A stretch of DNA of 64,000 nucleotides from Prunus persica (Eukaryota; Streptophyta; Magnoliopsida; Rosales; Rosaceae), in NCBI RefSeq assembly GCF_000346465.2, contig NC_034010.1, positions 11,762,945 through 11,826,944 on the forward strand, read 5' to 3'. The notes under the pieces were generated by a model that saw only the letters and a list, made by a program, of their open reading frames with translations, made no database searches and was not told where the DNA came from. How positions within the stretch are numbered: the first letter of the stretch is position 1; every line of letters begins with the position of its first letter. This document shows positions 2,511 through 58,775 of the stretch, one piece after another. Made by a program: the position numbers and the translations under genes.

Positions 2511-2689
2511 TTTTACAGACAAAACTGCAAGTGAAAATATTTCAAGAAAAGATTAAGAACACAAACGACGGTTATTAATAAAATACGACGTATGATATGA
2601 TTTGAAACGACGCAATGAAATAATATCAGACGTAATAAATTTTTAAAACCAAGGTAAACAACGACGAAATAATTGACTACAAACGACGT

Positions 2690-3440
2690 GATAATTAACT
2701 ATAAACGACGGAATATTTATATAACGTCGTGGTATTGATGTTCACACGACGTCAGTAGTAATATACCGTCGTCTATATAAGGATCCAAAACCCTTCTTTC
2801 TTTCTCTGTGAATGTTTGATTGCAGATTTGATTTTTCTGAACCATGGTTTTTGTTTTCTAATTTGATAAAGTACAAGGCCAAGAAAGAAAGTTTTGGAAT
2901 CTTATATAGACGACGGTATTTTAATATGACGTCGTGGTATTAACATTCACACGACGTAAAACAATAAGATACTGTCGTCTATATTAGATACCAACCCTAA
3001 TTTCTTTTTCTTTATATTTTATCAAATTAGGGAAAAACAAAAACCATTGTTCAGAGAAATCAAACCTGCAATTAAACAAGCAAATAAAAAAAAGACTAAA
3101 ATTTTAAAAACAACTTTGTCAATTTTCAGACGACGCTAGAACGACTGACGAACCGTCGTGGTCTACATATTTAACCACGTAAATAAGAAGCTACCGTCGT
3201 CTTATTTAGTTGAGGTAGTTGTCTTCAAAGTTGGAAACTTTCCCTCTTTGTCTGTATATTTTATCGAACTTGGAAAGAAGTAAAATGATTTTGGCCAGAA
3301 AAAAGGTAAAAAGATTTTTCAAACAAAAAACGTATGAGCATGCAAAACAGCAACCAAAATAGTGAAAATGAAAGCTTACCTTTTGCGTGCAATGAAAGCA
3401 AGAGGAAGACGATGGATGTTTAAATTCAGAGACGACGAAG
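2690..3440. repeat. Threefold repeated leader of the CACTA-1 TnpA gene
   Basis: A unit of about 200 bp occurs three times with divergence (about 2700-2890, 2900-3080 and 3120-3300). Each holds a motif pair of the type GTCGTGGTATT, a GTCGTCTATA-like stretch, then a T-rich stretch with CTTTATATTTTATCAAATT-like sequence in the reverse direction. CACTA-2 has one copy of the same stretch at about 47120-47240. It lies upstream of the TnpA start codon, so it is probably promoter or 5' leader sequence. Confidence 0.6.
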
Positions 3441-3969
3441 AAGACGATGAGATACTCTGAAAGTGCTCTGACAAGGAAAAAAGTCTAAAAGTTTTCTCTG
3501 GGAGATTGAAATTTTTAATCGGGTTTGGAAAAAGTGCATGTGTAAGTCAGGTAGACGAAAAGTTGCTTACATATAAAACCATTTCAAAAAAATAATACGG
3601 CGGTTACATATAACTACGACGTATAAATTACAAAATACGACAGTACGTTTAACTTCGGACGTGGTAAATAATTACGACAGTAGTGTTGTAGGTACCGTCG
3701 TAGTAAACTCAAAATTAAAGTACATAAGTAATAACTCACGTCATGGTAGATCATTTAACACGTCGGTTTTATTAATGTACCGACGTGGATTTATGTAATA
3801 TACGTCGGTAATACCGACGTTGATTTTACAATTTAAACGGCGGTTTTTTTGTAAGGACCGCCGTTGGTTTTAAAAATTTATTCTATAAATTTGTCGCTTT
3901 CATTCATTTTCGGTTTACATTTAGGGTTCCAAGTTCTTCCTCTCTCAGAGACACTGTCTCTCACATCTC

Positions 3970-4366
3970 AAAGACAGTAATTTGGATGTCTTTCTCAAAG
4001 AGAAATTGAGCTTACTCGCATCAAATCTATGTCCACAAGAAGAAGCTTGTCAACTAGCCTTCTCACTTCCTTGATCAAGCCTGATAGGACACTTAGTGCT
4101 TCTGAATACTCCTTGCTTTCCATCAAAAGAGATGCAAGCCTGGCCTCCACTCGCTGTCGAAGGAAAGTTCGCTTCTCAGGGAAATCTGAAGATCAGATGT
4201 GCCTGATCCTCTGCTTGATTTTCTTGGCTAAGAAGATCCGTCAGATTTGTGATAGCCTCTTCCTTTATCCGTAGAGCTTCAGAAGAAGAAGATGGGTTTC
4301 AAGAATGCGATAAAGAATAGAAATGGCTTCAGATGGCCTCTAAAGCATGAGCAATCGAATCAGTGC
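3970..4366 (-). pseudogene. RPN6: Captured fragment of the 26S proteasome lid subunit RPN6 (PSMD11)
   Basis: Read on the minus strand, 4182-4030 encodes peptides such as VEARLASLLMESKEYSEAL and LSGLIKEVRRLVDKLLLVD, characteristic of the N-terminal half of RPN6/PSMD11, a 26S proteasome lid subunit. Upstream pieces match further N-terminal RPN6 sequence (DSIAHALEA, then SSSSEALRIKEEAITNL). Between them a middle portion is deleted and the frame changes. After about 4033 the homology continues in another frame (SKLNFSLR). It is therefore a degenerate gene piece. It lies inside CACTA-1 between the subterminal array and the TnpA leader, on the same strand as TnpA. CACTA-2 has a shorter version at 47021, so the capture predates the split of the two copies. 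The ORF on the plus strand here (4029-4274) is an antisense shadow. Confidence 0.83.
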
Positions 4367-4479
4367 TTTGAACTATACTTTGAACTATACAAGTCAATGC
4401 TTTGAACTATACAAGTCCTGCAGAAAGATAAAGGACCAAACTATTAAAGAAACTGAAACTGTTAAAGAAACCCCAAACT

Positions 4480-5717
4480 AACACGACGCAATATTTGTTT
4501 TGCGACGTGGAATCTTTTCATTTAACGTCGTTAGGTTTAATATAACCGACGTGGATTTGAATTTTTAAATTATGAATAGAATTTTTTTTCCCGTGACTTT
4601 TCAGTTTATTTTTCAATTACAGTGCGTTATAAATAGAGTTTTTTTTCCGGAGGAAATTTAAAATGAAGGAAATTAATGTTCTGGAATATGTAAAGTTTCT
4701 TTTTTGGATGACAGATTTAAATAAAATAATAATATTAAAACAACGACTGTTTTTGTATTACTGTCGTCGTTTTTCGTCGTCTTAAGTAAGACTAAGACGA
4801 CGTAATATATTTGTTGAGCGACGTTGATTTGTGTTTTAAACGTCGTTAGGTATAATATAACCGTCGTTGAAAATTGTCTCTCTGATTGCAAATTTGCAAC
4901 GACGTTAGGTATAATATTTGTAGATACACAAACGCACACACACCATCAACTTCCAAAAAATTGTCTCTCTGATTGCAAATCTGTGTCATCTGTTAAGATT
5001 ATGATGTGGAACAGAGTTCCATCTGGTAAGATTTCGTAACTCTTGGGATCTCAGAAAAATATGATTATGTCGGCGGTTTTCTATATAAACCGTCGTGGTT
5101 ATTTCAATTCTTGTCATTAAGTAGATCTACCGACGTAGGATAAGAAAATCAAAGAAAAAAATTGTTAACAAAAATTCTTATTAAGACGACGGTTTAAATT
5201 AAAGGTACGACGTATAAAATGAATAAATACGACGTTAAATTTTATAGTACGATTTAAAGATAACGTCGTAGAACTATACCAGAATGACGTCGATATATTT
5301 ATATTTTTCGTCGTTGTACATTAATTTAATACGGCGATATTTTGTATTTTAAAGCCGTGGATTTGTTTGTAATTATACAGCGTCTTATACGAAAACCTCG
5401 TCGTGTTATTTTATGAGTAAAAACGGCGGCTTTTATTGAAATCGTCGTCTTTACTTTCTACGTCGGTCGATTCATAACTTCTGCCGTTCTTTGTTGGCTT
5501 TGATTTTACACTGCGGAAATCTGTTTCAAATAGACGTCGGTTGTTTAATTAAGTACGTCGTTGTTTTTGAACAGCCATTTGAATCTCCATTTTTTAGTTG
5601 TCTAAGGTGGTATTACACGACGGTGTTTTTAGAACCGTCGTCTTTTTAAAAACCACGACGGTTTTCACTGAGACCGTCATTGTTTTCTGGTCGTCTTTTT
5701 CACTTTTTGTAGTAGTG
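4480..5717. repeat. CACTA-1 5' subterminal motif array
   Basis: From 4480 to the terminus the sequence is AT-rich and punctuated every 15-25 bp by CGTCG or CGACG cores, often as ACGACGG or CCGTCGT and often in facing pairs. It is nearly identical, in mirror image, to 46015-46960. In En/Spm elements subterminal repeats are TnpA binding sites; assigning that role to this motif is inference from position. Confidence 0.8.
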
Positions 5718-21290: not shown

Positions 21291-22457
21291 ATTTCCGAAC
21301 TACGTTGGTTTGATCCCGTCAAGGGTATGTATGTAGTCTAGCATCCTAGTAGACGCAACCGCAACCAAATTTGAATCCCTGATTTATTTTTCCAAAACAC
21401 ATATTAAAATCAAATCCTTGGTTTATTCATCTAAATTCACTCAAATATTTTTTTCAATCAAATTCATTGAAATTTCACTTTTCTTTTTTTTTTTTTTTTT
21501 TTTTGCAATGAGTCATTTATTCATTGCAAATCTTTGAACTACGAGTGGCTTGATTCTCGCAAGGGATACGTAGACACCCTAAGGTTGGACTTGGGAGCAG
21601 TCGCAAAACCAAACACACACATTCTATTTCTTTATAATGGAATCAAAGGGTGTTCCCTTGAAGCAAGGGATTGTAATTAAGAGACACTGCGTCTCGAATG
21701 GGTCGAATCTAAAATGATAAAACCCCATTATTTAATTAGTATTGGTGAAATTATGTTAGGAGGATCATATTTTCCTTCAACAATCATAGATGCTAAAGTA
21801 TAATCAATGGCATCGGTAAGAAACGTCAAAAATTTGTGATGATGCCTTTATACCCATTTAGTCTTATTAATTATAAAATCGATGCCTAAGATACTAACAG
21901 CATCGGTTTTTAGATTTGTCGATCCATATGTGGTGTTGTGTAAAGTAAAATTTGGCATAGTGAGACGATATGGAACTTACCTGAAATTGAGTTAGAGGCG
22001 GCGACGACGAGATGCAGAGAGGAGACGGCGATGGGGACCGCGAGTGGCTTCTTCGATTGGAGCAACAACGGCAAAAATAGAGCGATGGTGGGTGTGGGTT
22101 CAACTCAAAGTAATATTTGTGAGAACTGGAGAGTTTGTAGATGAGAAGGAGGAAGTCAAGGTTTGGGTTAGAAAGCTCGAGATAGAGCGAGTTAAGGTTT
22201 TGTTTTGTGTTTCTTTTTTTTTTTGGCTAAGTGTTAGGCGCAAAATTTAAATGGAGCGAAAACATGGGTGGCACGCAAAAAAAATTTGAGGGAAAGGCTC
22301 AAAATTTATTACCGAGGGTATTTGGCCTCCCTCGGAAAAACGTCATCATAACAAATAAATTTAAAAATAAGAAAAATAAACTAAAAAAATCCTATGAACT
22401 CCTTGTGACATCCTCTTCACCTTAAAACTCTAAAAATATAATTTTTGAATTATAAAA
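21290..22457. other. Repeat-derived region without supported genes
   Basis: Two blocks near 21296 and 21537 share GAACTACG...TTGATC...AAGGG and a following GTAGAC or GTAG; a third relative is at 42070. They look like pieces of one non-coding retrotransposon family. From 21980 to 22220 there is a G+C-richer stretch resembling a 5' leader. The block 22355-22457 is repeated at 26855-26966. Confidence 0.45.
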
Positions 22458-23165
22458 GAGTGCTGCTAAACGAACCCTAATATTAACTAAGCACACCCTA
22501 CTATCAAATTATTTATTGAATTACTAATTTATCCTAATATAAAATGACCAAAAAGGATATATTAAATTGTGAAACACCGTCGACGACTCCTCCACCGAAC
22601 ATAGCAACGCCTCTTGCATAACATCATTTCCTCCACTGTCACACTAACACCGTCGTCATACCATCCACTTCTGCACCGTTACAGTAATGCCGCCGTCGTA
22701 CCATTATACTGGAGTCGTGGTCATCTAGTATTGGTAAATCTCATTTTAATTTTGTTATCAAATGGGTTATACTGTCTTGATTTGTTCTTCACGGGCTAAA
22801 ATATTTTGTAACCTTCCTCTAGAAATTGGTTTTAATTTGTTCTTCAAAGGGAGAAGTTTATGGGTTGTTTAATATTGATTATCTGAAGAGATCCATGACC
22901 ATGTGTGTAATGACCCAAACCTAAAATTCATATTTAATGAGTAATTTATTATGTGGAAAGACAATTTTGCCCTTGGAATAAATTATGAACTCAAAGTTGA
23001 CTTTTTGACCGAAAAGGAATTTGACAATTCCACATACACCGTTGCGTAGAGCACGACGACACGAGTTCATAGACACGAAGTAAGCTCGAATCGGAGTTTT
23101 AACGAAGAAAATACGATTAAAATATCACGAAGGGCAAAACAGTAAATTGGAAAATCAGATAACCT

Positions 23166-36410: not shown

Positions 36411-37811
36411 CACTACTACAAAAAACGAAATTGACAACGGTAATCCACCGCCGTGATGCTTTGAAAACCGTCGTTAAATCGACCGCCATCTTTTGAAGCC
36501 TCAAACTACGACGGCTTTCCACCATCATTGTTTATCTGTAAAGACGACGGTTTTTAGTAAAACCACCGATGTTCTAATGTAAAGACAACAGTCTTTTGTT
36601 AAAAACCGTCATTGTTTATGGGTAAAGACGACGGCTTTTGTTTAAAAGACGACAGTATTTTGTTATAACCGTCTGTCATTTACGGGTAAAGACATCGGAA
36701 TTTTGTTAAAAAAAGGTCATTGATTATATATAAAGACGACGGTATTGTGTTAAAAAAAGTAATTGATTATATGTACAGACGACGATTTTTCCAATAAAAC
36801 CGTCATTATATTAAGTATGTTGTCTAATGAGTTCCCAAGCTGTTACATTTTAGTTTTTTGTTTCCTATGATTCTATACAACGATTTTAACTAGAAAACCA
36901 ATTATAATGCTTTATTAACGAATAATACACTCAAAAATTATTTCTTTCATAAAACTTGAAGATTCAATAGTTATTACATAGTCAACCAATCTTTATTCTA
37001 TTACATACATACTTCCTACCTATAGTTAGAAATAATGGAGCTCACAAATTCTACTAATTTGATCTTAACTTCATCAATTTGTTCTTGGGTTGACTTAGCT
37101 CTGCCTTTTTGTACATTTTCCAAGAAGTTGGTGTCGAAAGGACCTGCACGAAAGAGACCCAAATACTTTTAAACACAAACCTGTTTAGCAGCAACCAAAC
37201 CTTAGCAAAAAGATCTATGCAGCTTTAGAATGACAGCAACTTGAGAAAATTGGTAAAAAGCTCCAAAACATTCAAATTTTAATCAAAAAAATCTAACCAA
37301 AGCTCTAATAAATAACTGTAATTAGAAGGAAATTAGAAATTATATACTCACCAAAGGAGGAAGGAAAAACAATGGGCCAGCATTTCAGCAAGCCAATGGC
37401 CATCACTTGCCCGCAAGGCTGAAAAGAAATGAACAAATTTTCTCAGTGAGGCTGTGGCCTTTTCACATGTGATTTCCTCGCCATCCTCCAACCTTTACTG
37501 GGGGAATTGTCTGCTTGAAGTTCTCCTCTTTTAGGAACTGCAGTTTAGTGAACAGAGGATTATGATTGGTATTAGAGAAAAAGTAAGTTAATTCCTGATG
37601 CTGATTATAGAACAAACTTATGAGTGCTAAAAACAAGAAAAGGAATTCAAAAGTTGTCATGTTCAAAGCTAACTATTTGTCTAGTTGTATTTTTCTTTAT
37701 TTCTTTATATAAGTGCATATTCAAGAAAATCTTATATATAGTGCAGATTAAACATAGGATCCCCTAACTTAACATATTTTGTAAATGTCTCAATTGTTGT
37801 AAATGGATATT

Positions 37812-37872
<61 letters not shown>

Positions 37873-38031
37873 CCATACGTGCAGTTTGCAGTTTGCAAAG
37901 AAGAAGCTGCAGAAACCTTATTGTAGAGTTTGGTTATGTAGCTAAGAATGAAAGAGAGGTGGGGTTGGCCAGCTAGCTAGCTTATATATATACATATGTG
38001 TGTGTGTGTATGTATATGTATGGTTAATACG

Positions 38032-38083
<52 letters not shown>

Positions 38084-39564
38084 CTGCAAGTGCAGTTTGC
38101 AAAGAAGATTGTAGAGAATTTGCAAATGAAACCTCACCTTGCAAGTAAAAAAGGCAGAGAAGGGCAGACCTCAACCAATAGCCAAACACAAACACAAAGA
38201 AATTAGAAGACCAAAATTCATGAAACCTAAACAACTGCTTGTCGGAATATTGATTTAAACTAAGCACTCAAATGAACAAGCACAAAGTAAATATTGAAGG
38301 GAAACTAAGAAACAAAAAACAGAGTAGGGAGAGGTAGTTCTCGACTACTCATCCTCCTCAAATCTCTCTTTTATTCTATTCTTCTGTTTCCTCCTTCTCT
38401 CTCTTACATTACATTTCTAGGAGGTAGCTCGCGAGTTAACATGAATATGCTTCCAAATTTGAGTAAATTCACAATATAATTGCCAAATCAAACAAAAACA
38501 CTACAGTCAGAGTCAGATTCAGTGAAAATAATAATAATTAAGCTCAAGACAACAAAACACGAAGATGAACACTGAAATCCACACCTGCAAAACAAAAACA
38601 AAAAAAATCCCCATAATAATCAAACCCATTGATACAAATAAAACGGCGGAGAAAGCTAAACCAGTAGAACATAACCCTAGAAACAGATTCTTGCCCAAAT
38701 AAACCCTAGAAAAAAAGGAAGATGATGAAATTTGTGCTTTGTTTTGGGAATCAAAGAAAATGAGAGAAAGAGAGGGACAAGGTGAGGAGGCTAACCTTGA
38801 AGATGTTGACCTCCTATGGCGGCGAGCTCGGTGAGGACGACAGCTAAGGGCCTGAAGTGGCCGCGAATGTTAAATCGCAAACGGTGACTCCTCCTATGGC
38901 GACGAGCTCGGGGACGACGACAGCGAACAGTTACAGATTTGTTTAAGAGACTGAGAAGATGCGATGAGAGGGGAAGAGTTGAGGGAGATTCAGAGAGTTA
39001 AGGAATGTTTCAAAAGGAGGGAGACAGATGTTTCAAGCTGTGTGGAAATCCGAAATTTTTCGGTCGAGGGCGAATAAACTTAAGGGAGATTCAGTGTGAT
39101 ATCCAATATAGGAGCCTAAATTATAAAAAAAACATATATGAAATGAATTTTAGAAACACGCTCAAAACTCATTTACAACATAACAAAAAGGCTTTTAACT
39201 TCTTTTAAATTACAAAATTGTCATTGATTTCTTAAAACAAACTCAACTCAAAAACCTCATAAAAAAGCCCAAAATATGTTTATATAAATTAAATGGTGTA
39301 GGGTTTATTTATAGTTTTAGTGCTAAGAATGGGTATATGACTAAATATCTCTAAACTTAAGTGCCCTTTATGTTTAGCGTGTTTTCAAAAGACGACGTTC
39401 ATTAATTGAGAACGTCGTAGTTTTAAAATCAACTTGCTTTTAGTAGCGTATGAGATCATATACCACGACAGTTTTGTAAAAACATAATCTTTTAAAACAC
39501 AACGACGGTTTTAAGGTACATCGTCGTCTATTTTTTGTTGTGGTTTAAGGATATTGTAGTAGTG
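36411..39564. mobile_element. CACTA-3: non-autonomous CACTA element
   Basis: A 3,154-bp element beginning CACTACTACAAAAAACG and ending ATTGTAGTAGTG, flanked by TCA on both sides (36408-36410 and 39565-39567). Subterminal regions (36440-36830 and 39390-39530) contain ACGACGG/CCGTCGT motifs of the CACTA-1/2 family, more diverged. It lacks a transposase. The inside holds apparent gene fragments on the minus strand, two GA-rich microsatellites (37815-37868, 38036-38078) with similar flanks (GCAGTTTGCAAAGAAGA), and a 5'-leader-like G+C-rich stretch around 38800-38990 with a GGTTAGCC donor-like site. Confidence 0.93.
37016..37143 (-). pseudogene. Remnant last exon resembling the CACTA TnpA/Ulp1 C-terminus
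   Basis: On the minus strand an acceptor GTGCAG precedes an open stretch of about 42 codons ending TAG at 37016-37018. Its peptide STQEQIDEVKIKLVEFVSS resembles the last exon of the CACTA-2 gene (QEAIDEVRNEWAEFV). No catalytic-domain exon is visible upstream. It could also be part of another captured gene. Confidence 0.45.
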
Positions 39565-46014: not shown

Positions 46015-47015
46015 CACTACTACAAAAAGTGAAAAAGACGACCAGAAAACAACGACGGTCTAAGTGAAAACCGTCGTGGTTTTTAAAAAGACGACGGTTC
46101 TAAAAACATCGTCGTGTAATACCACCTTAGACAACTAAAAAATAGAGATTCAAATGGCTGTTCAAAAACAACGACGTACCTAATTAAACAACCGACGTCT
46201 ATTTGAAACAGATTTCCGCAGTGTAAAATCAAAGCCAACAAAGAACGGCAGAAGTTATGAATCGACCGACGTAGAAAGTAAAGACGACGATTTCAATAAA
46301 AGCCGCCGTTTTTACTCATAAAATAACACGACGAGGTTTTCGTATAAGACGCCGTATAATTACAAACAAATCCACGGCTTTAAAATACAAAATATCGCCT
46401 TATTAAATTAACGTACAACGACGGAAAATATAAATATATCGACGTCATTCTCGTATAGTTCTACGACGTTATCTTTAAATCATACTATAAAATTTAACGT
46501 CGTATGTATTCATTTTATACGTCGTACCTTTAATTTAAACCGTCGTCTTAATAAGAATTTTTGTTAACAATTTTTTTCTTTGATTTTCTTATCCTACGTC
46601 GGTAGATCTACTTAATGACAAGAATTGAAATAACCACGACGGTTTATATAGAAAACCGCCGACATAATCAGATTTTTCTGAGATCCCAAGGGTTACGAAA
46701 TCTTACCAGATGGAACTCTGTTCCACATCATAATCTTAACAGATGACACAGATTTGCAATCAGAGAGACAATTTTTTGGAAGTTGATGATGTGTGTGCGT
46801 TTGTGTATCTACAAATATTATACCTAACGTCGTTGCAAATTTGCAATCAGAGAGACAATTTTCAACGACGGTTATATTATACCTAACGACGTTTAAAAAA
46901 CAAATCAACGACGTTGTTTCAACGACGGTTATATTAAACTGAAACCGCCGTTGTTTCAGTTTCTTTAACAGTTTGGTCCTTTATCTTTCTGCAGGACTTG
47001 TATAGTTCAAAGCAT
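46015..47015. repeat. CACTA-2 5' subterminal motif array
   Basis: CGTCG/CGACG cores recur every 15-25 bp. Near the end they form facing pairs, for example ACGACGGT then AACCGTCGT at 46051-46076, able to form stem-loops. Both cores contain two CpG sites in an otherwise CpG-poor, AT-rich background. Confidence 0.85.
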
Positions 47016-47020
47016 TGACA

Positions 47021-47113
47021 ATGTCTTCATCATATCTCCCAGCAACTACTGATTCGATTGCTCATGCTTTAGAGGCCATCTGAAGCCATTTCTATTCTTT
47101 ATCGCATTCTATT
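47021..47113 (+). pseudogene. RPN6: Captured N-terminus of RPN6 (26S proteasome lid subunit)
   Basis: From the ATG at 47021 the reading frame gives MSSSYLPATTDSIAHALEA, matching the start of plant RPN6 as remembered, then a TGA at 47080 and frame-shifted remnants (SILYRI-like codons). The middle portion kept in CACTA-1 at 3970-4366 is deleted here. It lies upstream of the TnpA start on the same strand. Some captured 5' leader (TTGTATAGTTCAAAGC) precedes it and also occurs, repeated, in CACTA-1. Confidence 0.72.
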
Positions 47114-47344
47114 CTTTAGATTCCAAAACTTTCTTTCTTGGCCTTGTATTTTATCAAATTAGAAAACAAAAACCATGGTTCAGAAAAATCAAATCTGCAA
47201 TCAAACATTCACAGAGAAAGAAAGAAGGGTTTTGGATCCTTATATAGACGACGGTGTGTTATTATTATTACGTCTTATTTTATATTATTTCGTCGTTGTT
47301 TAATTACCTTGGTTTTAAACATTTATTACGTCTGAGATTATTTC

Positions 47345-47400
47345 ATTGCGTCGTTTAAAATCATATCATACGTCGTATTTTATTAATAACCGTCGTTTGT
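47345..47400 (+). repeat. Phased motif array in the 5' leader intron of TnpA
   Basis: CGTCG cores at 47349, 47371 and 47391 (22- and 20-bp steps), inside TTGCGTCGTTTAAAATC, ATACGTCGTATTTTATTAA and ACCGTCGTTTGTGTTCTTA. It ends shortly before the probable acceptor CACTTGCAG at 47436. It matches the distal parts of introns 1, 4 and 5. Confidence 0.75.
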
Positions 47401-47450
47401 GTTCTTAATCTTTTCCTGAAATATTTTCACTTGCAGTTTTGTCTGTAAAA

Positions 47451-50400
47451 ATGGTTTCTCAAGACCAAAGTAAGGACTCTGGCTCTAAGAAAAATGGAGG
47501 TAAGGAGCTTGGAATGGTAACTCCTCAAGAGAAGTCTTCGAAGAAGATGAAGTTTGCTTCATCATCTGCTGAGACAGAACCAACCAGCACGACAACAATC
47601 TCTGATGATTCAAAGTCTGGTCGAGGTATGAGCACAATGCCTCGTGTTGTGAAGAGAAAACTTCAGAAACTCAGGCCAATTGTTGAGTACAATAAAAGGG
47701 GGAAAGGAATTGGCCAAGCATATAGTGAGATGCAGTCCTACATTGGTGTGTTGGCACGCTCCAGAGTTCCACTTGTGGACATGAAATGGGCTCAAATCCC
47801 CAAGGATATAAAGGAGCAGATTTGGGAAGCAGTTGACATTGCTTTTGTGGTAGGTCAAGGGGGCAAGAACTCTGTGTTAGCTTCTGCTGCCAAGAAATGG
47901 AAGGATTTCAAGTCTACACTAACGAGGCATTATATCCTTCCATACACCAATGACAGGGAGAGATTAAGCCAACCCCCTGAAACATATAAATTCATAGAGA
48001 AAGCACAATGGGATGCCTTTGTAGCTTCAAGGTTATCCAAAGATTTTGAGTCTGTGCATTCTCAACATGCACAGATTAGGGAGAAACTTGAGTACAATCA
48101 TCGATTGTCTCGAAAAGGATATGCTGGTTTGGAGGATCAATTGGAGGAAACCATGCCTGGGGTAGAAATTGATCGATCTACCTTATGGAAGAGAGCTAGA
48201 CAGGACAAACATGGTAACATCCCGGATCCAAAGGTGGCAGAGAAAGCAAAATTAATTGTAAGCCTACTCACTCTGTTTTAAATTTTTATTAAACTGTGAA
48301 TAATTCTTATTACGTCTTATGTTATATTTTGCGTCGTGTGAATGATATTACCACGTCGAAATTTTTTAAAAAACGTCGTTAAAGGTCTAAATCAGGAATC
48401 ACTACTCTGTTTTCTGTAATTATAGCATAAGATGTCGGTGGTTCATTTTCGCGTCGTTTGTATTGAATTACTACGTCGAAATGTTTTAAACAAGGTCGTT
48501 AAAGGTGTGAATATTGAATCATCCCTCTGTTATCTGTAAATAAAGCATAAGACGTCGGTGGTTTATTCATTTCGTCGTTTTAAAAACTAACCACGTCGGT
48601 ATAACTACCGTCGTGATAAATTATAATAACGTCGATTTATATGTTATTGCGTCGTGTGAAATTATATAATACGTCGTTTGTATATAAATAACCGTCGTGC
48701 GTTTTTGTTCTTACTTTTTTATATATCTTTGTTTTAGGATGAATTGCAAAAACAAGTCTCGGAAGGCAAAGTCACTGTATTTGGCAGCAATGATGTGCTG
48801 ACCATGGCTTTGGGCCCCGAGCATCCAGGCAGAGTGAGAGGAGTAGGTGCTGGGATCTCACCAAGGCAATATTTCAATTTACCCAAACCACAGAGAGTGA
48901 GCTTTGACGACCGTTTGAAGGACAGTTTAAGAGTTCTCCTTCAAGAAGAGACTAAAAAGATGGAAGCTAAGGCAAGGGAAGAGGCTTTAAGGATGGAGGC
49001 TAGAACGAAACAATTGGTAGAGGCTGAGAGGGAGCATTTCCTGAGTCAGCTTTCCCAATTAATTCCCAATTTTGATCCAAGCATGCTTAAACCCAGAATT
49101 AGCCAAAGTCCCAAAAATCCAATGTCTGACAAAGCAAGCTGCTCTGGAGGTGATGTGAGATCCCTACATTTTGAGGATGATACTGCCAAAAATGGGAAAC
49201 ATCAGGAAGAAAAGGTAACATATCTGAACTTTGAATTCTCTGTTTTTTTTAAAACCATTAGACGTCGTTATTATTAATAAAACCGTCGTTTGAAATACAT
49301 ACCACGACGATTTTAAAAATAAACCGTCGTTTGTATTTCAATACCACGTCGTATTTAGTTTACTTGTTTTACACGCCATTAAACGTCGTTATTTTTAAAA
49401 CTTTGTGGTTTTTAGACGACGGTGTTAGTCATTCCCGACGTAATATATAAATCCCACGACGTTTACTATTTACCATCGTTTAATAATTTAAGACGTCCAT
49501 AATTCTTACATACTGTCTTGTGTTTTGTCTTACCACGACGTTTGAATTTAATTTTTTTAATTTCTCTACATTCTTTATTACTTAAAACAGAAAAATGAAG
49601 AAAAAAAAGATGAAGAGAAGAAAGAAGAAAAACAAGATGAAAAGGAGAAAGAAGATGAAGAAAAGCATGACGACCAGGTATGTTCACATAACTTTGCCTT
49701 TTTTATTTGTTTTTCAAAATTTCAGACGTCGATATTTTTCTTTAAACCGTCGTTTGTTTACAACTTAGACGGCGGAATTTTTTTCTAAGACGTAATAAAT
49801 TATTCACCACGACGGTTTTTTCACCGTCGTTTAAATTCTTTTCAGACGACGTTTTATTCCTTAAACCGTCGTTTTTATTGAATTACCACGTCATTTTTTT
49901 TATTTCTTTAAACAGGTTATTAAAGTTGTTGATTATTCAAATATGGAGGCGCCATCTTCTTTAAAATCCCTTTGTCGTTATGCGGAAACAACACTCCTGC
50001 CTCAGGATAAGACCCTGCACTTTACAATTGATAAGGAGGTGTTTGGTCAAGAACGCGATACCTTCGTCCTGCCTGAAGATATTACACAATTTGCAGGCAT
50101 GGAAGAAATAGGAGCTACTGTCCTTGTTGTATATATGAGGTTTGTCATTCTAAAATAATACGTCGTTGGTTTATTTATTGCGTCGTCTTAACTATCTAAC
50201 CATGTCGTTAGTATGTACCGTCGTGATAAATATATTATAACGTCGTTGTCTATTTCAGTACGTTGTGTGAAATTTTATAATACGTCGTTTTGTTATACAT
50301 AACCGTCGTGTGTTTTTTTGTGCTGACTTGTTTATATTATTTTATATATTTAGGTACTTACACGATGTTTTGAAACAAGCAAATATGTGCAGCATGGTTG

Positions 50401-51303
50401 GCTTTATCGACCCTGCTACAGTTAGTGCCAACTCTGGCACAATAGCTGACAGATCACGACTGGTAGCAGCTCGACTTCAGAGGACTGACGGTGAACAGAT
50501 TTTCATGATGCCTTACAATCCAGGGTTAGTCTCCTTAACAGGATTTTGTTTTTATGATTTTCAATAAATGACAGCGTATAAACTAACCACGTCGGTGTTT
50601 TATTTTATTGAGTCGTTTGAAACTACTAACCACGTCGGTAGTTATTTATCGTCGTGATAAATGTATAATGTCGTCGATTGCTACTTTTTTCGTCGTGTGA
50701 AATATTATAATACGTCGTTTTTGTAAATAACCGTCGTTTTTATATTAATTTTGTGCAGTCGTCATTGGATCTTGCTGATTGTGAGAGCAAAGAGGGAAAC
50801 CGTCTATTTTCTGGATCCTCTGCCAGGAAATCGTGTGGTCGATGAAGAGGCCAAAAACATCGTGAACAGTGCTATAAAAATTTATAATTCTCACATAGCC
50901 AGATCAGGCCGTAAGGCAGTAATTTGGAAAACTCTGTCAGGCACACCAAAGCAACCCAGCAGTGTCGAATGCGGGTATTATGTGATGCGCTTCATGAGGG
51001 ACATCATCATGGATCCTTCCTTGGCGTTTGAGAAGAAGGTAAGAAGAAATTACCTTCATACATTTTACGTCGTTTTTTGTATTATCAACGACGGTCATGT
51101 AAAATTACCGTCGTTGAATAGATATACTACGTCGGTTATGAAAAATATCGTCGTCTGTGATTGAATTTCTTTTTATTTATAAACCCTAGTAGTCATTGTT
51201 TATGCAGTATGCCAAGGGAAAACAGGAAGCACCATACCCCCAAGAAGCAATTGATGAAGTCCGGAATGAATGGGCAGAGTTTGTTTGCCTTCACCTGGAA
51301 TAG
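47451..51303 (+). CDS. TnpA-like protein with Ulp1 (C48) peptidase domain
   Basis: Seven exons join in phase: 47451-48257, 48738-49214, 49591-49677, 49916-50139, 50354-50524, 50759-51038 and 51208-51303, giving 713 residues with no stop. All junctions are GT-AG. Residues 60-270 form the plant Ptta/En/Spm transposase domain (Transposase_24 type; YNKRGKGIGQAYSEMQSYIG, then RSTLWKRARQDKHGNIPD). Residues 270-428 include a coiled coil (LLQEETKKMEAKAREEALRM). Exon 3 is a Lys/Glu tract. Residues 560-690 are a C48 cysteine peptidase with His591 (RHWILLIV), Asp608 (FLDPL), Gln654 and Cys660 (VECGYYV), so the catalytic set is present. C48 enzymes process SUMO-like modifiers; here a role in regulating transposition is inference. 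A 5' leader intron probably ends at 47436. This copy could supply protein in trans. Confidence 0.88.
48585..48700 (+). repeat. Phased motif array in TnpA intron 1
   Basis: CGTCG cores start at 48609, 48630, 48650, 48672 and 48693, steps of 21, 20, 22 and 21 bp. The order of flanks (ACCGTCGTGATAAAT, TTGCGTCGTGTGAAATTA, AATACGTCGTTTGTA, ATAACCGTCGTG) is repeated in introns 4 and 5. Confidence 0.85.
50155..50312 (+). repeat. Phased motif array in TnpA intron 4
   Basis: CGTCG-like cores start at 50161, 50181, 50203, 50219, 50241, 50261, 50283 and 50304; most steps are 20-22 bp. The last five units match the intron 1 array in order and flank (TACCGTCGTGATAAAT, GTGTGAAATTTTATAATACG, ATAACCGTCGTGTG). 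Confidence 0.85.
50585..50740 (+). repeat. Phased motif array in TnpA intron 5
   Basis: Cores start at 50590, 50611, 50633, 50650, 50672, 50691, 50713 and 50732, steps of 17-22 bp averaging about 20. Flanks (CCACGTCGGTAGT, CGTCGTGATAAATGTA, CGTCGTGTGAAATATTATAA, AATAACCGTCGTTTTT) match introns 1 and 4. Confidence 0.85.
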
Positions 51304-51599
51304 GGGAATTATTGAACACTTGATATTTATGTATAATGTACAAATTTTGTCTATAATATATAATGTAAAAATTTGTTGAGGTTTTCTTAAATTAAAAAAA
51401 AAAACAAACATACAAATTGCGTAACCGACGTGTAATACTTTTCCAACGACCTAATAAAGTCAAAAAACCGTCGTTTTTTGTTGTTTCGTTTTAAACAAAT
51501 CCGACGTAAAAGGATATTTAGACGACGTTATTTGAACAATTGAGTCGTTTATGGTTTACAACGTCTTCAATTTCTTAAGGGTTCAGGGTAGTACTTTGT

Positions 51600-52850
51600 A
51601 ACGACAGCGGTTAAGTCGTGGAATATATATTTTACGTCGGATAGTTAAATATCCGCCATGGTTTCTCATTTAAACGACGTCATTTTAACAACTTAGTCGT
51701 CTATTACAATTTACAACGTCTACAATTTATTAACACCGACGTGGTTTGTTGTTGTGATAAGAATATTTTATTATTTTTATATCAAAATATTCAAAATAAA
51801 TTTAAAATAAATCAGAAAAATGCAAAGTCAACTCCTATGAAGTCATTGATATATTTTCTTCCCCCTAAACCTTGAAAAAATTCATTTTGAATAACAAAAA
51901 TTTAAAATGACCATCCAAAACAAAATTGTTTTGATGAGTCATAAAATCACTTCTAGTTTTATGGTTTAGGGTTTAGAGTCTAGGGTTTAGAGATTAGGGT
52001 TGTTATTTATTGGGGTTTATTTTTAAAGTATAATTTTTGGGTAGTCTAGGGTATATATTAGGCTGTAAAACCATAAACCCTTTTATAAACTTAATTTTTT
52101 AAATTATATAATTTAGTTTTAAGGGTTTAGGGTATTAATTTTTAACGACGGTGGTTGAGTCGTGGAATACATATGTTACGTCGTGCAGTAAAATATCCGA
52201 CATGGTTTCTACTTTAAACGACGTCATTTTAATATGTAAGTCGTCTATTATAATTTACAACGTCTACAATTTATTAACACCGACGTGGTTTGTTGTTGTG
52301 ATAAGAATATTTTATTATTTTTATATCAAAATATTCAAAATAAATTTAAAATAAATCAGAAAAATGCAAAGTCAACTCCTATGAAGTCATTGATATATTT
52401 TCTTCCCCCTAAACCTTGAAAAAATTCATTTTGAATAACAAAAATTTAAAATGACCATCCAAAACAAAATTGTTTTGATGAGTCATAAAATCACTTCTAG
52501 TTTTATGGTTTAGGGTTTAGAGTCTAGGGTTTAGAGATTAGGGTTGTTATTTATTGGGGTTTATTTTTAAAGTATAATTTTTGGGTAGTCTAGGGTATAT
52601 ATTAGGCTGTAAAACCATAAACCCTTTTATAAACTTAATTTTTTAAATTATATAATTTAGTTTTAAGGGTTTAGGGTATTAATTTTTAACGACGGTGGTT
52701 GAGTCGTGGAATACATATGTTACGTCGTGCAGTAAAATATCCGACATGGTTTATACTTTAAACGACGTCATTTTAATATGTAAGTCGTCTATTATAATTT
52801 ACAACGTTTTCAATTTCTTAACCCCGACGTGGTTTTTCAGTCGTCTTTAT
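51600..52850 (+). repeat. Tandem duplication, 544-bp period, between the two CACTA-2 genes
   Basis: Units start at 51600, 52144 and 52688 with AACGAC(G/A)GxGGTTxAGTCGTGG. The first two are full length and nearly identical; the third breaks off near 52850. Each contains motif clusters, a stretch with TTTAGGGTTTAGAGTCTAGG that resembles plant telomere repeat, and AAAATGACCATCCAAAACAA. No coding function. Confidence 0.92.
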
Positions 52851-52989
52851 ATCTAAATATTCAAAATAAATTTAAAATTAATCCGAAAAATGAAGCGTCA
52901 AAATAAACGGCGTTACGTTCAGTGTTTCCGTCGTGGAATATTACATTTACGTCGGTTCTTGTAGAACTTTCGCCATGGTTTTTCTTTCG

Positions 52990-53807
52990 ACGTTTTAAAG
53001 AGCGCGCTCTCTAAAAATTTTCGCGCGCCCTAAATTTTTTAGATTTGGCTCTTATTCTTATACTTCTAACCCTGAACCCTAAAATTTTCATATTTCGCGC
53101 AACATAACATTTCGCTCTCTCACTTCTGCTCTAATTAAAAGTTGCACTCTCCAGGCTCCGTCGAATCTGTGAGCTCGTCCAACCTGTAAGTACAAACCCT
53201 ATCTTCCCCTTGTAAATTCATTGAATGATATTAGGTTGTTTTGTTAAAGGGTTTTAGGTATATGCTTTGCGATCTGTTAATAATGTGCTTATAGGTATGG
53301 GTTCATGGATTTTCTGTTTAATGGGTTCATGGATTACATTATCTGTTATGTTGAATTGGGAATGGATTTAATTTTGTCGGATCTTTTAATCACCCTATGT
53401 TATGTTGAATTGGGAATGGATTTATTGTTTTCATGCTTGGTTTCATGTATATGTTGGTTTCTTGCTTGGTTTCATATATATGTTGTGTTCTTAATGGGTT
53501 TTGGGTTCTTGAAAATAAACTGAGACACGACGCCTTTTTAGGCATACGACGACGATTACATGACGGTTTATGAAAAAACCGTCGTTGTATTACTTATACA
53601 CGACGGTTTTTTCATAAACCGTCGTTTGTATTACTTATATTAGACGACGTCTGTTGAAAATCCGTCGTCTATATATGCCAAATACGTCTGTTTTTGTTTA
53701 AAACCCGTCGTCTCTGTTGTGTATTACTTGCTATTAGATCTTTGTATAATCTGCTATAGTGATGGTCATTGCTTGTATTTTCACTTTATTATAGATAATA
53801 GGTTATA
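52990..53807 (+). promoter_or_regulatory. Promoter, leader and 5' intron of the CACTA-2 transposase gene
   Basis: A motif-free G+C-richer stretch at 53000-53185 (CGCGCTCTC, CTCTCACTTCTGCTC) resembles a transcription start region. It ends in a CCAACCTGTAAGT donor at about 53188. The acceptor ATAGGTTATAG lies just before 53811, upstream of the ATG at 53817. The presumed intron carries CGTCG motifs from 53525 to 53715, including a long inverted repeat. Confidence 0.5.
53558..53628. repeat. Long inverted repeat of motif pairs
   Basis: GACGGTTTATGAAAAAACCG then, after TTGTATTACTTATACA, the exact reverse complement CGGTTTTTTCATAAACCGTC. Each arm is itself a motif pair around a T- or A-rich centre. 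It lies in the leader intron of the transposase gene. Confidence 0.85.
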
Positions 53808-53816
53808 GTGTCGGAG

Positions 53817-56800
53817 ATGGATAAGTCATGGATGCACTCGGATAGAAGATCGAAGGCATATGAGTTTGGGGTGGAAGCATTTTTGAACTTTGCTGTAGAA
53901 AATCTTCTAACTACAACACATATCCGTTGTCCATGTGTTAAATGTGTTAATTTGAAGTTGTTTGGGGTTGGAATTATAAGGGATCACTTATACTTTAATG
54001 GAATTGACCAAAGCTATAAGAATTGGACATTTCACGGAGAACCTTGGGAAGCAACTACTAATGCTAGTAGAAATGTTGAAGAAGATGATGGCCATAGTAG
54101 GTACAGTTTTGTGTCTGAAGAAATTGATATGGATGATAATGATTTTGGTGATTTTGGTTCCGATCCGTATGAGTTTGCCAATGTGATTGGGGATGGAGAT
54201 CAACCAGTGTACCCTGGTTGTAGAAAGTACACGAAGTTATCGGCATTAGTGAAGTTGTATAATTTGAAGGCAAAACATGGGATGAGTGATGTCTGTTTTA
54301 CAGAATTATTGATACTTCAAGGCGATTTGCTTCCATAAGGAAATACAATACCAACCTCTATGTATGAGGCTAAAAAGACTTTGTGTGCATTGGGGCTGAG
54401 TTATGAGAAAATGCACGCATGCCCCAATGATTGCATCTTGTATAGGAAGGAGTATGAGGATTCAACTAATTGTCCTACTTGTGGTATCTCAAGGTGGAAG
54501 GAAGGCAAAGATTCAATCTTGAAAGAGGGTGTGCCAGCGAAGGTGGTGTGGTATTTTCCTCCAATTCCAAGGTTTAAAAGGATGTTTCAATCAGATGAGA
54601 CAGCTAAGAGTTTGACTTGGCATGCTGCTAGAAAATCAATTGACGGTCAGATGTCTCATCCGGCGGATTCCCCGTCTTGGAAACTTCTTGATGATAAATG
54701 GCCTGAGTTTGGTAATGAGCCGAGAAACTTGAGATTGGCTCTTTCATCTGATGGATTCAATCCCCACAGTTCTCTAAGTAGCAGATATAGTTGTTGGCCG
54801 GTTATCTTAGTTACATATAATCTCCCTCCATGGCTGTGCATGAAACGAAAGTTCATGATGTTAACCTTATTGATTTCCGGTCCTAAACAACCCGGAAATG
54901 ATATAGACGTCTACTTGGAGCCTTTGATTGATGATTTAAAATCTTTGTGGGATGGGATTAGAGGAGTGTATGATGCACATAATGGAGAATACTTTACACT
55001 CAGAGCTGCATTAATGTGGACAATTAATGATTTCCCCGCCTATGGAAACTTATCTGGTTGTGTTGTTAAAGGATATAAAGCTTGTCCAATATGCGGCGAT
55101 GATACACCTAGTCACAGGTTGAAAAATGGCCACAAAAATTGTTACATTGGGCATAGAAAATGGTTACCAATCAATCATCCATATAGGAGGCAACGTGCAG
55201 CTTTTAATGGGAAACCTGAATATGGCATACCTCCCGAGCCATTAACCGGAGAAGAAGTGCTGCATATGGTTGAAAATGGTGACAGAGTTTGTTGGAAGAA
55301 GAAATCAATATTCTTTGATCTCGAGTATTGGAAATACCTTCTTGTGAGGCATGCCCTAGATGTTATGCACATTGAGAAGAATGTTTGCGATAGTATCATT
55401 GGTACATTGCTGGAGATCCCTGGAAAAAAATAAAGATGGGATTGCTGCTCGATTAGATTTATTGAACATGGGGGTCAAAACTGATTTGCAACCCAAGTAT
55501 GGAGAAAGACGTACTCGTTTGCCTTCTGGGCCTTGGAATTTGTCAAGAGCAGAGAAGAGAGAGGTTTGCAATTCTTTCTATGGTATGAAGGTCCCTGAAG
55601 GTTATTCTTCAAATATTAAAAATCTTGTATCTTTACAAGATTCAAGACTTCTTGGCCTTAAATCACATGATTGTCATACCTTAATGCAACAATTGCTCCC
55701 TGTGGCAATTCGTTCTGTTTTGGAGAAGCCTGCAAGGTATGCAATAACTCGTTTGTGCTTATTCTTCAATGCTATATGTGCAAAGACTGTTGATGTTTCC
55801 AAGCTAGATAAGTTGGAAGAAGATGTAGTAGTTACTCTGTGTTTGCTTGAGAAGTACTTTCCCCCTTTATTCTTTGATATCATGGTTCATCTAGTAGTAC
55901 ATCTTGTCAGAGAAGTTCGTCTATGTGGGCCAGTATATTTTAGGTGGATGTATCCGTTTGAAAGATATATGAAAGTGCTGAAGGGGTATGTTCAGAATCG
56001 TACTCGTCCCGAAGGTTGCATTGCTGAGCGGTATATAGCTGAAGAAGCGGTAGAGTTTTGTACTCAGCATTTATCTGATGTTAGTACAGTTGGAGTGCCT
56101 TCAAGCCAAAAGATGGGAGTTTCAAAGCCATTATCAGGTTGCACAGTGAGCGTAGTTGATCAGGACCTGTTGAATCAAGCACATCTATATGTCTTGGAGA
56201 ATACGGAGGAAGTCCTACCTTATATCGAGTACGTATGAGTTTTATTCTTTAAGTTTCCATTTTAAATTATTTCTTATGTTTATCTTATATATTTGGGACC
56301 GTAATGCTTGAATTTTTCGTGTCATGTAGGCAACATATGATCCACATCAAGACTGCTTATCCAAAATTTAGAAAGAGAACAAAGTGGCTGCAGGATAAGC
56401 ACAATAGCACTTTCATTCAATGGCTACGCTTCAAGGTATATGTTGTTGAATAACATATTTCTTTTTTAATTTTCTTCTTATTTCTATGTTAGATTGAATT
56501 AAGATATGATTAATTTGCAGGTTCAAAGTGAACTTGAGGAAGACAATCATGGCGTATCAGAAAATTTAAGGTGGCTAGCAGCTGGTCCAAACATGGCAGT
56601 GCCATTATATAGGAGCTATCTTATTAAAGGTATTAAATTCAATATCAAGGCACAAGATGATGTGCGGACAACTCAAAATAGTGGAGTTTATTTACTTGCA
56701 CATACCATGCAAGTTGCTAGTGCCAAGGATAAAAACCCAATTCTCTCAAATATGGGTTTCTATGGTGTCATTCAAGAAATTTGGGACCTTGACTACCAAA

Positions 56801-57165
56801 AGTTTACAATCCCAGTCTTTAGGTGTGATTGGATAGATAGTTCTGGTCTTGTAGTCGACGAACTTGGATTTACCCTTGTAGATTTGAGTAAAATTGGACA
56901 TAGGAATGACCAATTTGTTTTGGCTTCTCAAGTCAAACAAATATTTTTTGTTGACGACCCGATGCATCGTGGTTGATCGGTAGTGTTATCAATGCCTAAT
57001 AGAGAATATAATGATGTTATTGGTGATGAAGTCTTAGGTGATGTGATAATTGAGTGTAAGCCATTTACTAGAGGGATGCCAAATGTTGACACAGTTGATG
57101 AACTGGTGGGTGAGTTAGGTGGTCAAAATATTCGAGATGGGTGTGAAGATATATGGATTGAATGA
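53817..57165 (+). pseudogene. CACTA transposase (TnpD/TNP2-like), two stops and one frameshift
   Basis: Three coding exons: 53817-56228, 56330-56435 and 56521-57165. They encode the transposase-associated domain (MDKSWMHSDRRSKAYEFGVE; CPCVKCVN), the Transposase_21 (TNP2) core (CPNDCILYRKEYEDSTNCPT; CWPVILVTYNLPPWLCMKRK; RAALMWTINDFPAYGNLSG), a DUF4218-type region (CGPVYFRWMYPFERYMKVLK) and a DUF4216-type region (VIQEIWDLDYQKFTIPVFRC). Breaks: TAA at 54336-54338, one extra A in the run at 55424-55430 that shifts frame, and TGA at 56974-56976. The order matches intact relatives otherwise. It would cut the element ends; this copy is probably inactive. Confidence 0.93.
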
Positions 57166-57239
57166 TGCTTATGTAATTGGCAGTGTATGACATTAATTTT
57201 GTAATATATTGTAATGTGATTTCTTCACTTTCTACATTC

Positions 57240-58775
57240 AAATAAAACATGACGTTATTGTGAATCAGTTATTCAGCATATTTACCGACGTCTTAAAGCA
57301 ACGTAACAATGAAGAACCACGACGCTATTGTGAAGCAATTATTCAGGATATCACGTCGGGGAAGGATTAAGAACCGCCATGTAATTCAAAAATACACGAC
57401 TCCAATCCCATAATACCGACGTCTAAAAAACGAGATATATAATCTGAACGTTAAAAAATACGACGTCATCATACATTTTCCACGTCGCAAGTTCTTTTAT
57501 AAACGAAGAGGAACGAAATGAATTCCGACGGTAATTCATTATAACCGCCGTCTAATATCAATTAAACGACGTTATTTGTAATACGGCTCTCATCATAATC
57601 AACGCCGTCTATATGTTCTGTAATACGGCTCTCATTTATTTGGAACCGACGTTGTTTAGAAGTTCAACGTCGTCTATATTAATAAGTGCGTCGTGAGTAA
57701 TGAATACATATAAATACAACGTCGACTATATAAATGCCACCGACGTTGTTTCGCATTTCAACGTCAACTATATAAATACATACGTCGTAAATAATGACAC
57801 TGACAACTATTTCCACGTCATCTTTTTTAGAAAAATCGAAGTGGAAAATTTATTTCACGACGGTTGTTTGTAAATAAGAGACGTAGTAGATATCAATAAC
57901 GTCGTCTTCTCATGTATTTAAAGACGTCATATTTTTTCTTGTCGTAAAAATTGTATTTAACGGCGTAGTGTTTTAGTTGTCGTCGTTGTATGTCTATCTT
58001 GCGGCCTTGTTCTTTTAATATGTGTCATATTTTTCCCTTTTAACGACGGTGATTTGTTTAAGTTGGTCGTCTATTCTCATCCTCGACTATTTTTTAGAAC
58101 TTTAGCAGACTAAACACGTCTGTTTTTATTTGTTTTCGACGTTGTTTTATTTAACAACGTCTAATATTTATCGTCGTTGTTTGTTTATGAAAATAGGACG
58201 TATAAATTTTGTAATACGACTCTCATATATTTGTAACCGACGTTGTTTCGTTGTTCAACGTCTATTCTATAAATACATACGTCGTAAATAATGACACTGA
58301 CAACTATTTCCACGTCATCTTTTATAGAAAAATCGAAGTGGAAAATTTATTTTACGACGGCTGTTTTTATATAGTCGACGTAGTAGGTATCAATAACGTC
58401 GTCTTCTAATGTATTTAAAGACGTCATATTTTTTATTGTCGTGAAAATGATATTTAACGGCGTCTTGTTTTAATTTTCGTCGTTGTATGTCTATCTTGCG
58501 GCCTTGTTCTGTTAATATGTGTCATATTTTTCCTTTTTAACGACGGTTTTTTTAGAGAGTTGGTCGTCTATTCTCATCCTCGACTGCTTTTTTAGATCTT
58601 TTTGCAGTACAAAGACGTCGTTTTGTATTTGTTGATGACGTTGTATATTTTAACAACGACGGTGATTTAGCGTCGTGGTTTATGAGGGAAAAGATGACGG
58701 TGGATTCCACGACCATTGAAAAACCGAATACACGACGGTGATTTACTGTCGTTTTTTTTCTTTTTTGTAGTAGTG
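57240..58775. repeat. CACTA-2 3' subterminal array with 497-bp tandem duplication
   Basis: Motif cores continue from just after the transposase stop to the terminus. Two units about 497 bp apart (around 57730-58080 and 58227-58575) share ATAATGACACTGACAACTAT, TCGAAGTGGAAAATTTATTT and TGTCTATCTTGCGGCCTTGT. Confidence 0.88.

Follow-up and report, generated by a model that had tools for sequence, protein, structure and literature searches.

What would arrays of a short, evenly spaced motif be doing inside the introns of a transposon's own gene? The question is raised by a 64,000-nucleotide stretch of the Prunus persica genome (NCBI RefSeq assembly GCF_000346465.2, contig NC_034010.1, positions 11,762,945 to 11,826,944, forward strand), hereafter the window, in whose own numbering all coordinates are given. 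It contains a CACTA transposon whose gene for a 713-residue TnpA-type protein with an Ulp1 domain (TnpA/Ulp1) is interrupted by six coding introns carrying arrays of a CGTCG motif. This window copy was the main element of our analysis, and relatives were searched for in 227.5 Mb of genome sequence (192 sequences). Judged from sequence comparisons, the arrays are real features well above chance, and probably functional. We give an about even chance to a reading in which the noncoding DNA of the element is a field of selected CGTCG(T) sites, most likely bound by its own TnpA-type protein with an anti-silencing effect. The noncoding DNA, including all six coding introns of TnpA/Ulp1, would then consist of predicted CGTCG(T) sites set roughly two turns of the helix from one another and maintained through selection on those elements that are still transposing. 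The TnpA-type protein encoded by the element would be the likeliest binder. Coating the element from end to end, it would open it against silencing, like VANC on VANDAL transposons, and the intron arrays would let the protein reach across its own gene.

CGTCG-type arrays in the noncoding DNA of the element

CGTCG and CGACG together make up 47 cores in the six coding introns (1,711 bp), or 25-30 per kb, with 13, 10, 6, 6, 7 and 5 cores in introns 1 to 6, and none in the seven TnpA/Ulp1 exons (2,142 bp). The lack of the motif from the exons, pointed out in an earlier sequence-only reading of this DNA, was reproduced and then rejected as stand-alone evidence: only 0.33 occurrences are expected from the exons' own dinucleotide frequencies, and a count of zero is unsurprising because the exons are low in CpG (observed/expected 0.19-0.79, with 0.27 in exon 1 and 0.21 in exon 2, versus 2.4-3.0 in the introns). 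The real signal is the enrichment of the motif outside the exons. The sequence-only reading had located the arrays in the leader intron and introns 1, 4 and 5, where they do occur; as their full extent this was too narrow, since arrays occur in every one of the six coding introns, in the two subterminal regions and in intergenic DNA as well. Their presence in subterminal, intergenic and coding-intron DNA, with none in the TnpA/Ulp1 exons, speaks for the proposed field of sites.

The cores are also regularly spaced. Among the 104 distances of up to 70 bp between successive cores in the whole element, 50 are 19-22 bp. The spacings of 21, 20, 22 and 21 bp claimed for the end of intron 1 read as claimed (a family consensus is also available), and the spacing of about 20-21 bp is far from random placement. 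At periods of 20 and 21 bp the phase statistic reaches 0.49 and 0.41, versus at most 0.22 and 0.20 when cores were placed at random within the same segments (300 trials); at 20 bp, no trial came to half the observed value. The best tested period, 20 bp, is near but slightly under two helical turns.

A T follows the core in 65-100% of sites, depending on the region, and both the core and the preference for this T are alike in subterminal DNA and introns. Such likeness would agree with sites serving the assembly of a transposition complex only, in the manner of the subterminal TnpA sites of En/Spm, those in the introns being auxiliary. We regard this as highly improbable, as we know of no requirement in En/Spm for sites several kilobases inside the element in the assembly of such a complex.

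The protein proposed to bind the sites is the second protein of the element and, as expected of an En/Spm-type TnpA, contains Transposase_24 (PF03004; residues 184-310, 5.1e-13, 49.8 bits, cut-off 28.7), described by Pfam as a plant transposase family of the Ptta/En/Spm type. Residues 581-681 match Peptidase_C48, or Ulp1 (PF02902; 8.8e-12, 45.8 bits, cut-off 20.7), which puts an Ulp1 domain inside a CACTA element, as in CACTA-ULP elements; a Pfam match to Tim54 was sub-threshold. The exon ends were inferred from the reading frame, GT-AG and an almond gene model. Alignment of the Prunus dulcis model P0001 with the spliced product (675/713 identities) crosses all six exon joints. Of its 18 gap positions, 14 fall within exon 6, three at the acceptor of intron 3 and the remaining one at the joint of intron 2. 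Identities of 72-95% were recorded for the proteins listed from almond, apricot and other Prunus.

Relationships and variation of the intron arrays

Local alignments were scored against a null in which every core was fixed and only the spacer letters were shuffled (200 shuffles). Introns 1 and 4 (z = 31.7), 1 and 5 (z = 20.9) and 4 and 5 (z = 22.4) are similar, as is the leader to introns 1, 4 and 5 (z = 9.1, 7.0 and 5.5); each of these scores was reached by 0 of 200 shuffles. The earlier claim that the leader end and introns 1, 4 and 5 share the same sequence beyond the CGTCG core is upheld by this range of z values (5.5-31.7), and these alignments show the four ends to be copies of a single array. 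The consensus of the family has the same eight sites in introns 1, 4 and 5, intron 5 having lost one core by one base. Introns 2 and 3 are mutually related (z = 10.0) and weakly like the others (leader-intron 2, 4.1; leader-intron 3, 4.0; introns 1-2, 2.6; 1-3, 3.8; 2-5, 5.2; 3-5, 3.4), these weak scores being reached by 0-5 of 200 shuffles. Similarity beyond the core was not significant between introns 2 and 4 (z = 0.9) or 3 and 4 (z = 0.0), nor between intron 6 and the leader or the other five introns (z = -0.7 to 2.1).

All cores of introns 1, 4 and 5 have a single orientation. This, and the position of the paralogous arrays near the acceptors of these introns, would suit a feedback on the transcript, an idea of the sequence-only reading, in which protein sitting on the intron arrays slows RNA polymerase or changes splicing. 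Given that the cores of introns 2, 3 and 6 are of mixed orientation and that subterminal and intergenic DNA are full of the same motif, we consider such feedback improbable.

The suggestion that introns may have been created or replaced by duplication of arrays holds in part, namely for array duplication within an intron, which has taken place in the family: a second copy of an intron 4 segment is present in 22 of 40 scored loci (rows counted by reading; best 40 of 935 candidates), and in one locus read directly (L052) intron 4 has 406 bp and 15 cores. Repeats are also found inside intron 1, the intergenic region and the 3' region. Duplication this common could mean that the arrays are neutral filler, the noncoding DNA growing by duplication of subterminal repeats and the introns having taken up functionless array pieces, an explanation that also gains from the ordinary rate at which single copies lose cores. 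What bears against it is the fate of the cores over longer distances, considered in the next section.

Searches of the peach genome scored the best candidates only (40, 143 or 150), and the resulting copy numbers are lower bounds. With exon 1 as the query, the best 143 of 902 candidates are all 95-100% identical; by these identities, the family is large and recent. Intron counts cover 27 copies, namely the window copy, its partial neighbour on the left and 25 fetched loci (L002-L006 and L039-L058); 20 loci were picked, non-randomly, from the exon 1 search list. L007 and L008 entered a first comparison only, and L009-L038, which in many cases repeat the same places with less flanking sequence, were left unused. 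Measurable copies numbered 27 for intron 1 (6-14 cores), 24 for intron 2 (5-10), 25 for intron 3 (4-6), 26 for intron 4 (6-15), 26 for intron 5 (5-7) and 25 for intron 6 (3-5). GT..AG ends, as placed by script, were found in 25/27, 14/24, 14/25, 23/26, 25/26 and 25/25 copies of introns 1 to 6.

For comparison by subfamilies within this one genome, family A (a consensus of up to 26 copies) was set against family B (loci L059 and L060). The low GT..AG counts of introns 2 and 3 go together with a variable exon 3 and with a deletion, present in 10 of 24 measurable family A copies, that takes away the acceptor of intron 2 along with the beginning of exon 3 and leaves a stretch of 212-213 bp for intron 2. 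Intron 2 is also the sole coding intron seen to differ by presence between the subfamilies, being absent from both family B loci, where the coding sequence is continuous. The donor of the leader intron is present in 7/7 fetched copies checked and the leader exon piece in 6/7, the seventh (L002) reaching less far upstream. Both leader exon and donor occur in the left partial copy and neither in the window copy, whose 5' subterminal region is without about 1.4 kb that the partial copy has. From this comparison, the window copy has apparently lost its leader exon and donor via a deletion of about 1.4 kb at 47110-47118, the acceptor part alone being left.

Core sites between paralogous introns and subfamilies

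Do the cores last longer than the sequence around them? Between the paralogous arrays of introns 1, 4 and 5, spacers differ at 41/168, 43/147 and 43/149 positions (24-29%) and core positions at 0, 1 and 1 of 40, core columns being those with a core in any of the three introns. The subfamilies offer a second comparison. L059 and L060 are 97.9% identical to each other; relative to the window they are 91-93% identical over two main stretches (about 8% apart) and 83-88% identical over a 315-bp stretch around intron 3. L060 keeps introns 1, 3, 4, 5 and 6; L059 keeps introns 1, 4 and 5, has an intron 3 without donor and an unreadable intron 6. Constraint was counted in introns 1, 4, 5 and 6, excluding introns 2 and 3 and taking the family B state of intron 6 from L060 alone, with single-copy changes in family A as the neutral yardstick.

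Core CpG positions changed between the families at 2/128 sites when classed by family A and 3/124 when classed by family B, versus 23/201 and 23/206 for other intron G/C. Single-copy changes in family A numbered 45 at core CpG and 69 at other G/C (classed by A), or 44 and 66 (classed by B). The distribution of single and fixed changes thus differs between core CpG and other G/C (Fisher p = 0.0021 classed by A, 0.0057 classed by B), and pooling the cores of either family gives single:fixed counts of 50:5 versus 69:40 (p = 0.00016). With one intron left out at a time, p lies between 0.00059 and 0.11 when sites are classed by A and between 0.011 and 0.037 when they are classed by B, and with one family B locus at a time between 0.0028 and 0.029; these tests overlap and are not independent. 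A/T positions changed between families at 37/700 (classed by A) and 36/701 (classed by B) sites. Since core CpGs changed less than both other G/C and A/T, lower mutation in unmethylated active elements is insufficient by itself as an explanation. As a control of the method, changes in exons 1, 2, 4, 5 and 6, excluding shared polymorphisms (46 and 35), gave single:fixed counts of 173:54 for nonsynonymous and 76:50 for synonymous sites (p = 0.0023), which shows, as far as such counts go, that the 713-residue protein is under the same kind of constraint as the intron cores. Families A and B have equal core spacings in three places: intron 5, intron 6 and the last array of intron 1. Together, these comparisons are suggestive of purifying selection on the intron core sites.

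The claim of constraint relies on the comparisons with family B and among paralogous introns, as only these separate cores from spacers. Conservation within family A was rejected as a sole sign of constraint, core CpGs and exon CpGs undergoing the same number of single-copy changes per site (0.33 and 0.34). Because core CpGs are lost as fast as exon CpGs, inserted copies show no sign of staying protected.

That cores outlast spacers between paralogous introns and between subfamilies, with spacing mostly kept, makes neutral filler quite unlikely in our view. Conservation of this kind implies only some user of the sites, whichever the binder, and might reflect a host transcription factor for which they serve as enhancers of the element's genes, both within introns and at the promoter. 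The arrays upstream of and within the introns of TnpA/Ulp1 are placed as such a factor would have them; the sites that fill the 3' subterminal region, far from this gene, are not, and we hold a host factor to be unlikely.

A number of observations weigh against the reading as selected sites bound by the element's own protein. The single-copy event rates (core CpG 0.33, exon CpG 0.34, other intron G/C 0.28) do not set the cores apart, and cores have more polymorphisms shared by at least two copies than other G/C does (17 vs 9 classed by A, 14 vs 12 classed by B); the shared core polymorphisms are probably repeated CpG losses, hence a sign that cores are not spared within the family. Some 31-36 cores and two family B loci (for intron 6, one) carry the case for constraint, whose p value without intron 1 is 0.11 with sites classed by A and 0.011 with sites classed by B. 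Both family B loci have lost intron 4 sites kept in family A, and one spacing in this intron has shifted by 3 bp. The alignments of paralogous arrays tend to lock onto cores and may favour agreement there. The motif was looked for in the two short introns of the TnpD-type transposase gene (93 and 84 bp) and none was found. Lastly, the structure predicted for P0001, from an alignment of 26 of 120 listed homologues (P0001 included) picked by eye for spread, has a mean predicted local distance difference test (pLDDT) score of 36.6, too poor to reveal a DNA-binding fold.

The contrast between single-copy and subfamily-fixed changes provides a simple detector of working sites in repeats, and the many near-identical copies in this one genome make the idea of anti-silencing sites directly testable with existing methylome methods.

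Layout of the element and comparison with known systems

The features of the element are listed in Table 1. Its termini, CACTACTACAAAAA at 46015 and 58775, are flanked on either side by a 3-bp CTA duplication, and a tnp2-type transposase (PF02992, E = 1e-96) is encoded at 54339-55430; both characters are those of the CACTA superfamily. The TnpD-type gene of the window copy has an in-frame stop and a frame break and, because this reading frame is broken, the window copy is probably non-autonomous.

Table 1. Positions of the element, its genes, introns and noncoding regions, and of a related partial copy, in the window
Feature	Position	Strand	Description
CACTA element	46015..58775	+	12,761 bp with both ends; termini CACTACTACAAAAA; CTA duplicated at the target site
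5' subterminal region	46015..47249	.	22 CGTCG-type cores, both orientations
Leader intron, remaining acceptor part	47250..47436	+	4 cores; introns 1, 4 and 5 align at their ends with its last three sites
TnpA/Ulp1 gene	47451..51303	+	seven coding exons, six coding introns, 713 aa
TnpA/Ulp1 coding exons	47451-48257, 48738-49214, 49591-49677, 49916-50139, 50354-50524, 50759-51038, 51208-51303	+	
Intron 1	48258..48737	+	13 CGTCG cores; internal repeats in the upstream part, 8-site array at the end
Intron 2	49215..49590	+	5 CGTCG and 5 CGACG cores; absent in two family B loci
Intron 3	49678..49915	+	4 CGTCG and 2 CGACG cores; related to intron 2
Intron 4	50140..50353	+	6 cores in the window copy; 8-site array copy, in tandem duplicate in other copies of the genome
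Intron 5	50525..50758	+	7 cores; 8-site array copy in which one site has a one-base change
Intron 6	51039..51207	+	4 CGTCG and 1 CGACG cores
Intergenic region and TnpD leader	51304..53816	.	28 cores, both orientations
TnpD-type transposase gene	53817..56976	+	tnp2, DUF4218, DUF4216; two short introns, 93 and 84 bp
3' subterminal region	57180..58775	.	31 cores, both orientations
Partial copy of the same element family	1-5717	-	runs off the window start; intron arrays and leader exon

Two of the noncoding regions contain long direct repeats: one of about 717 bp (96% identical, offset 544 bp) at 51575-52835 in the intergenic region, holding degenerate telomere-like TTTAGGG runs, and one of about 445 bp (88% identical) at 57739-58681 in the 3' subterminal region. 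Elsewhere in the window, a shorter stretch at 36411-39564, bounded by CACTACTACAA on opposite strands and containing 12 CGTCG-type cores, is perhaps a non-autonomous relative, and seven CGTCG-type cores lie at 21900-23100. A tnp2-type transposase gene of a different family in the same genome (L061) was assigned by its tnp2 match alone; the stretch yielded no CACTA ends. CGTCG-containing repeats lie upstream of its transposase frame; the stretch was checked for a TnpA/Ulp1-like gene through the open-frame list only and is not informative on the generality of intron arrays.

Maize En/Spm resembles the peach element in its CACTA ends, 3-bp duplication, tnp2 transposase and TnpA-type protein with Transposase_24, and a short motif is repeated in both subterminal regions of the peach element (22 cores at the 5' end, 31 at the 3' end), as is typical of En/Spm-type TnpA sites. 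The Spm motif itself differs from the CGTCG motif of peach. According to the accessible parts of the sources, TnpA of En/Spm binds subterminal repeats (PMC8195511) and TnpA of Spm correlates with demethylation (PMC10398659). Whereas the En/Spm sites are described there as subterminal, the peach arrays also fill six coding introns of a separate TnpA/Ulp1 gene. In grapevine and rice, CACTA-ULP elements likewise have an Ulp1 domain within a CACTA element, but intron motif arrays go unmentioned in the accessible part of their description (PMC2528002). Tgmt*, a soybean CACTA element, has an intron-rich gene and a repeated subterminal motif, its repeats, unlike those of peach, being reported in the two borders in the portion available (PMC2613891). 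More generally, CACTA repeats are described as subterminal in the available parts of PMC2613891, PMC8978399 and PMC8195511, and PMC4158355, which treats introns of transposase genes, nowhere uses the word subterminal in its main text. No report of intron motif arrays in CACTA elements was found in searches of an open-access library, most subscription papers lying outside its scope.

The sequence-only reading had further regarded arrays in the introns of an element's own gene as apparently undescribed. For transposons generally this was mistaken: the Mutator-type VANDAL21 of Arabidopsis has them in the introns of VANC21 and VANB21, where, in the accessible part of the source, the repeats vary (PMC5735166). 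The same part describes VANC21 as accumulating in introns, intergenic and terminal noncoding regions, and the regions with the motif as often being tandem repeats (PMC5735166). The VANC protein of VANDAL21 binds motif arrays and removes silencing, both binding and demethylation having been demonstrated, and host RNA-directed methylation hits the same noncoding regions as VANC, as stated in the available text of PMC10398659. The peach element shares with VANDAL21 a short tandem motif in terminal, intergenic and own-gene intron DNA, as well as the gain and loss of repeats between copies (PMC5735166, in part). It differs in its superfamily, having CACTA ends and a tnp2 transposase in place of a Mutator-type organization, and in its motif, and also in that binding and demethylation are, for the peach element, predictions of the reading proposed here. 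That CACTA elements, independently of VANDALs, evolved sequence-specific anti-silencing in which a TnpA with an Ulp1 (SUMO-protease-like) domain would bind phased CGTCG sites throughout, the introns serving as selected landing strips, we put forward as a tentative possibility. If true, the introns of transposon genes would be a place to seek anti-silencing sites, and two unrelated plant transposon superfamilies would have reached the same design of a self-encoded protein with targets across noncoding DNA, introns included. The architecture is already known in another superfamily; the novelty lies in finding it in a CACTA element, together with evidence pointing to selection on the intron sites.

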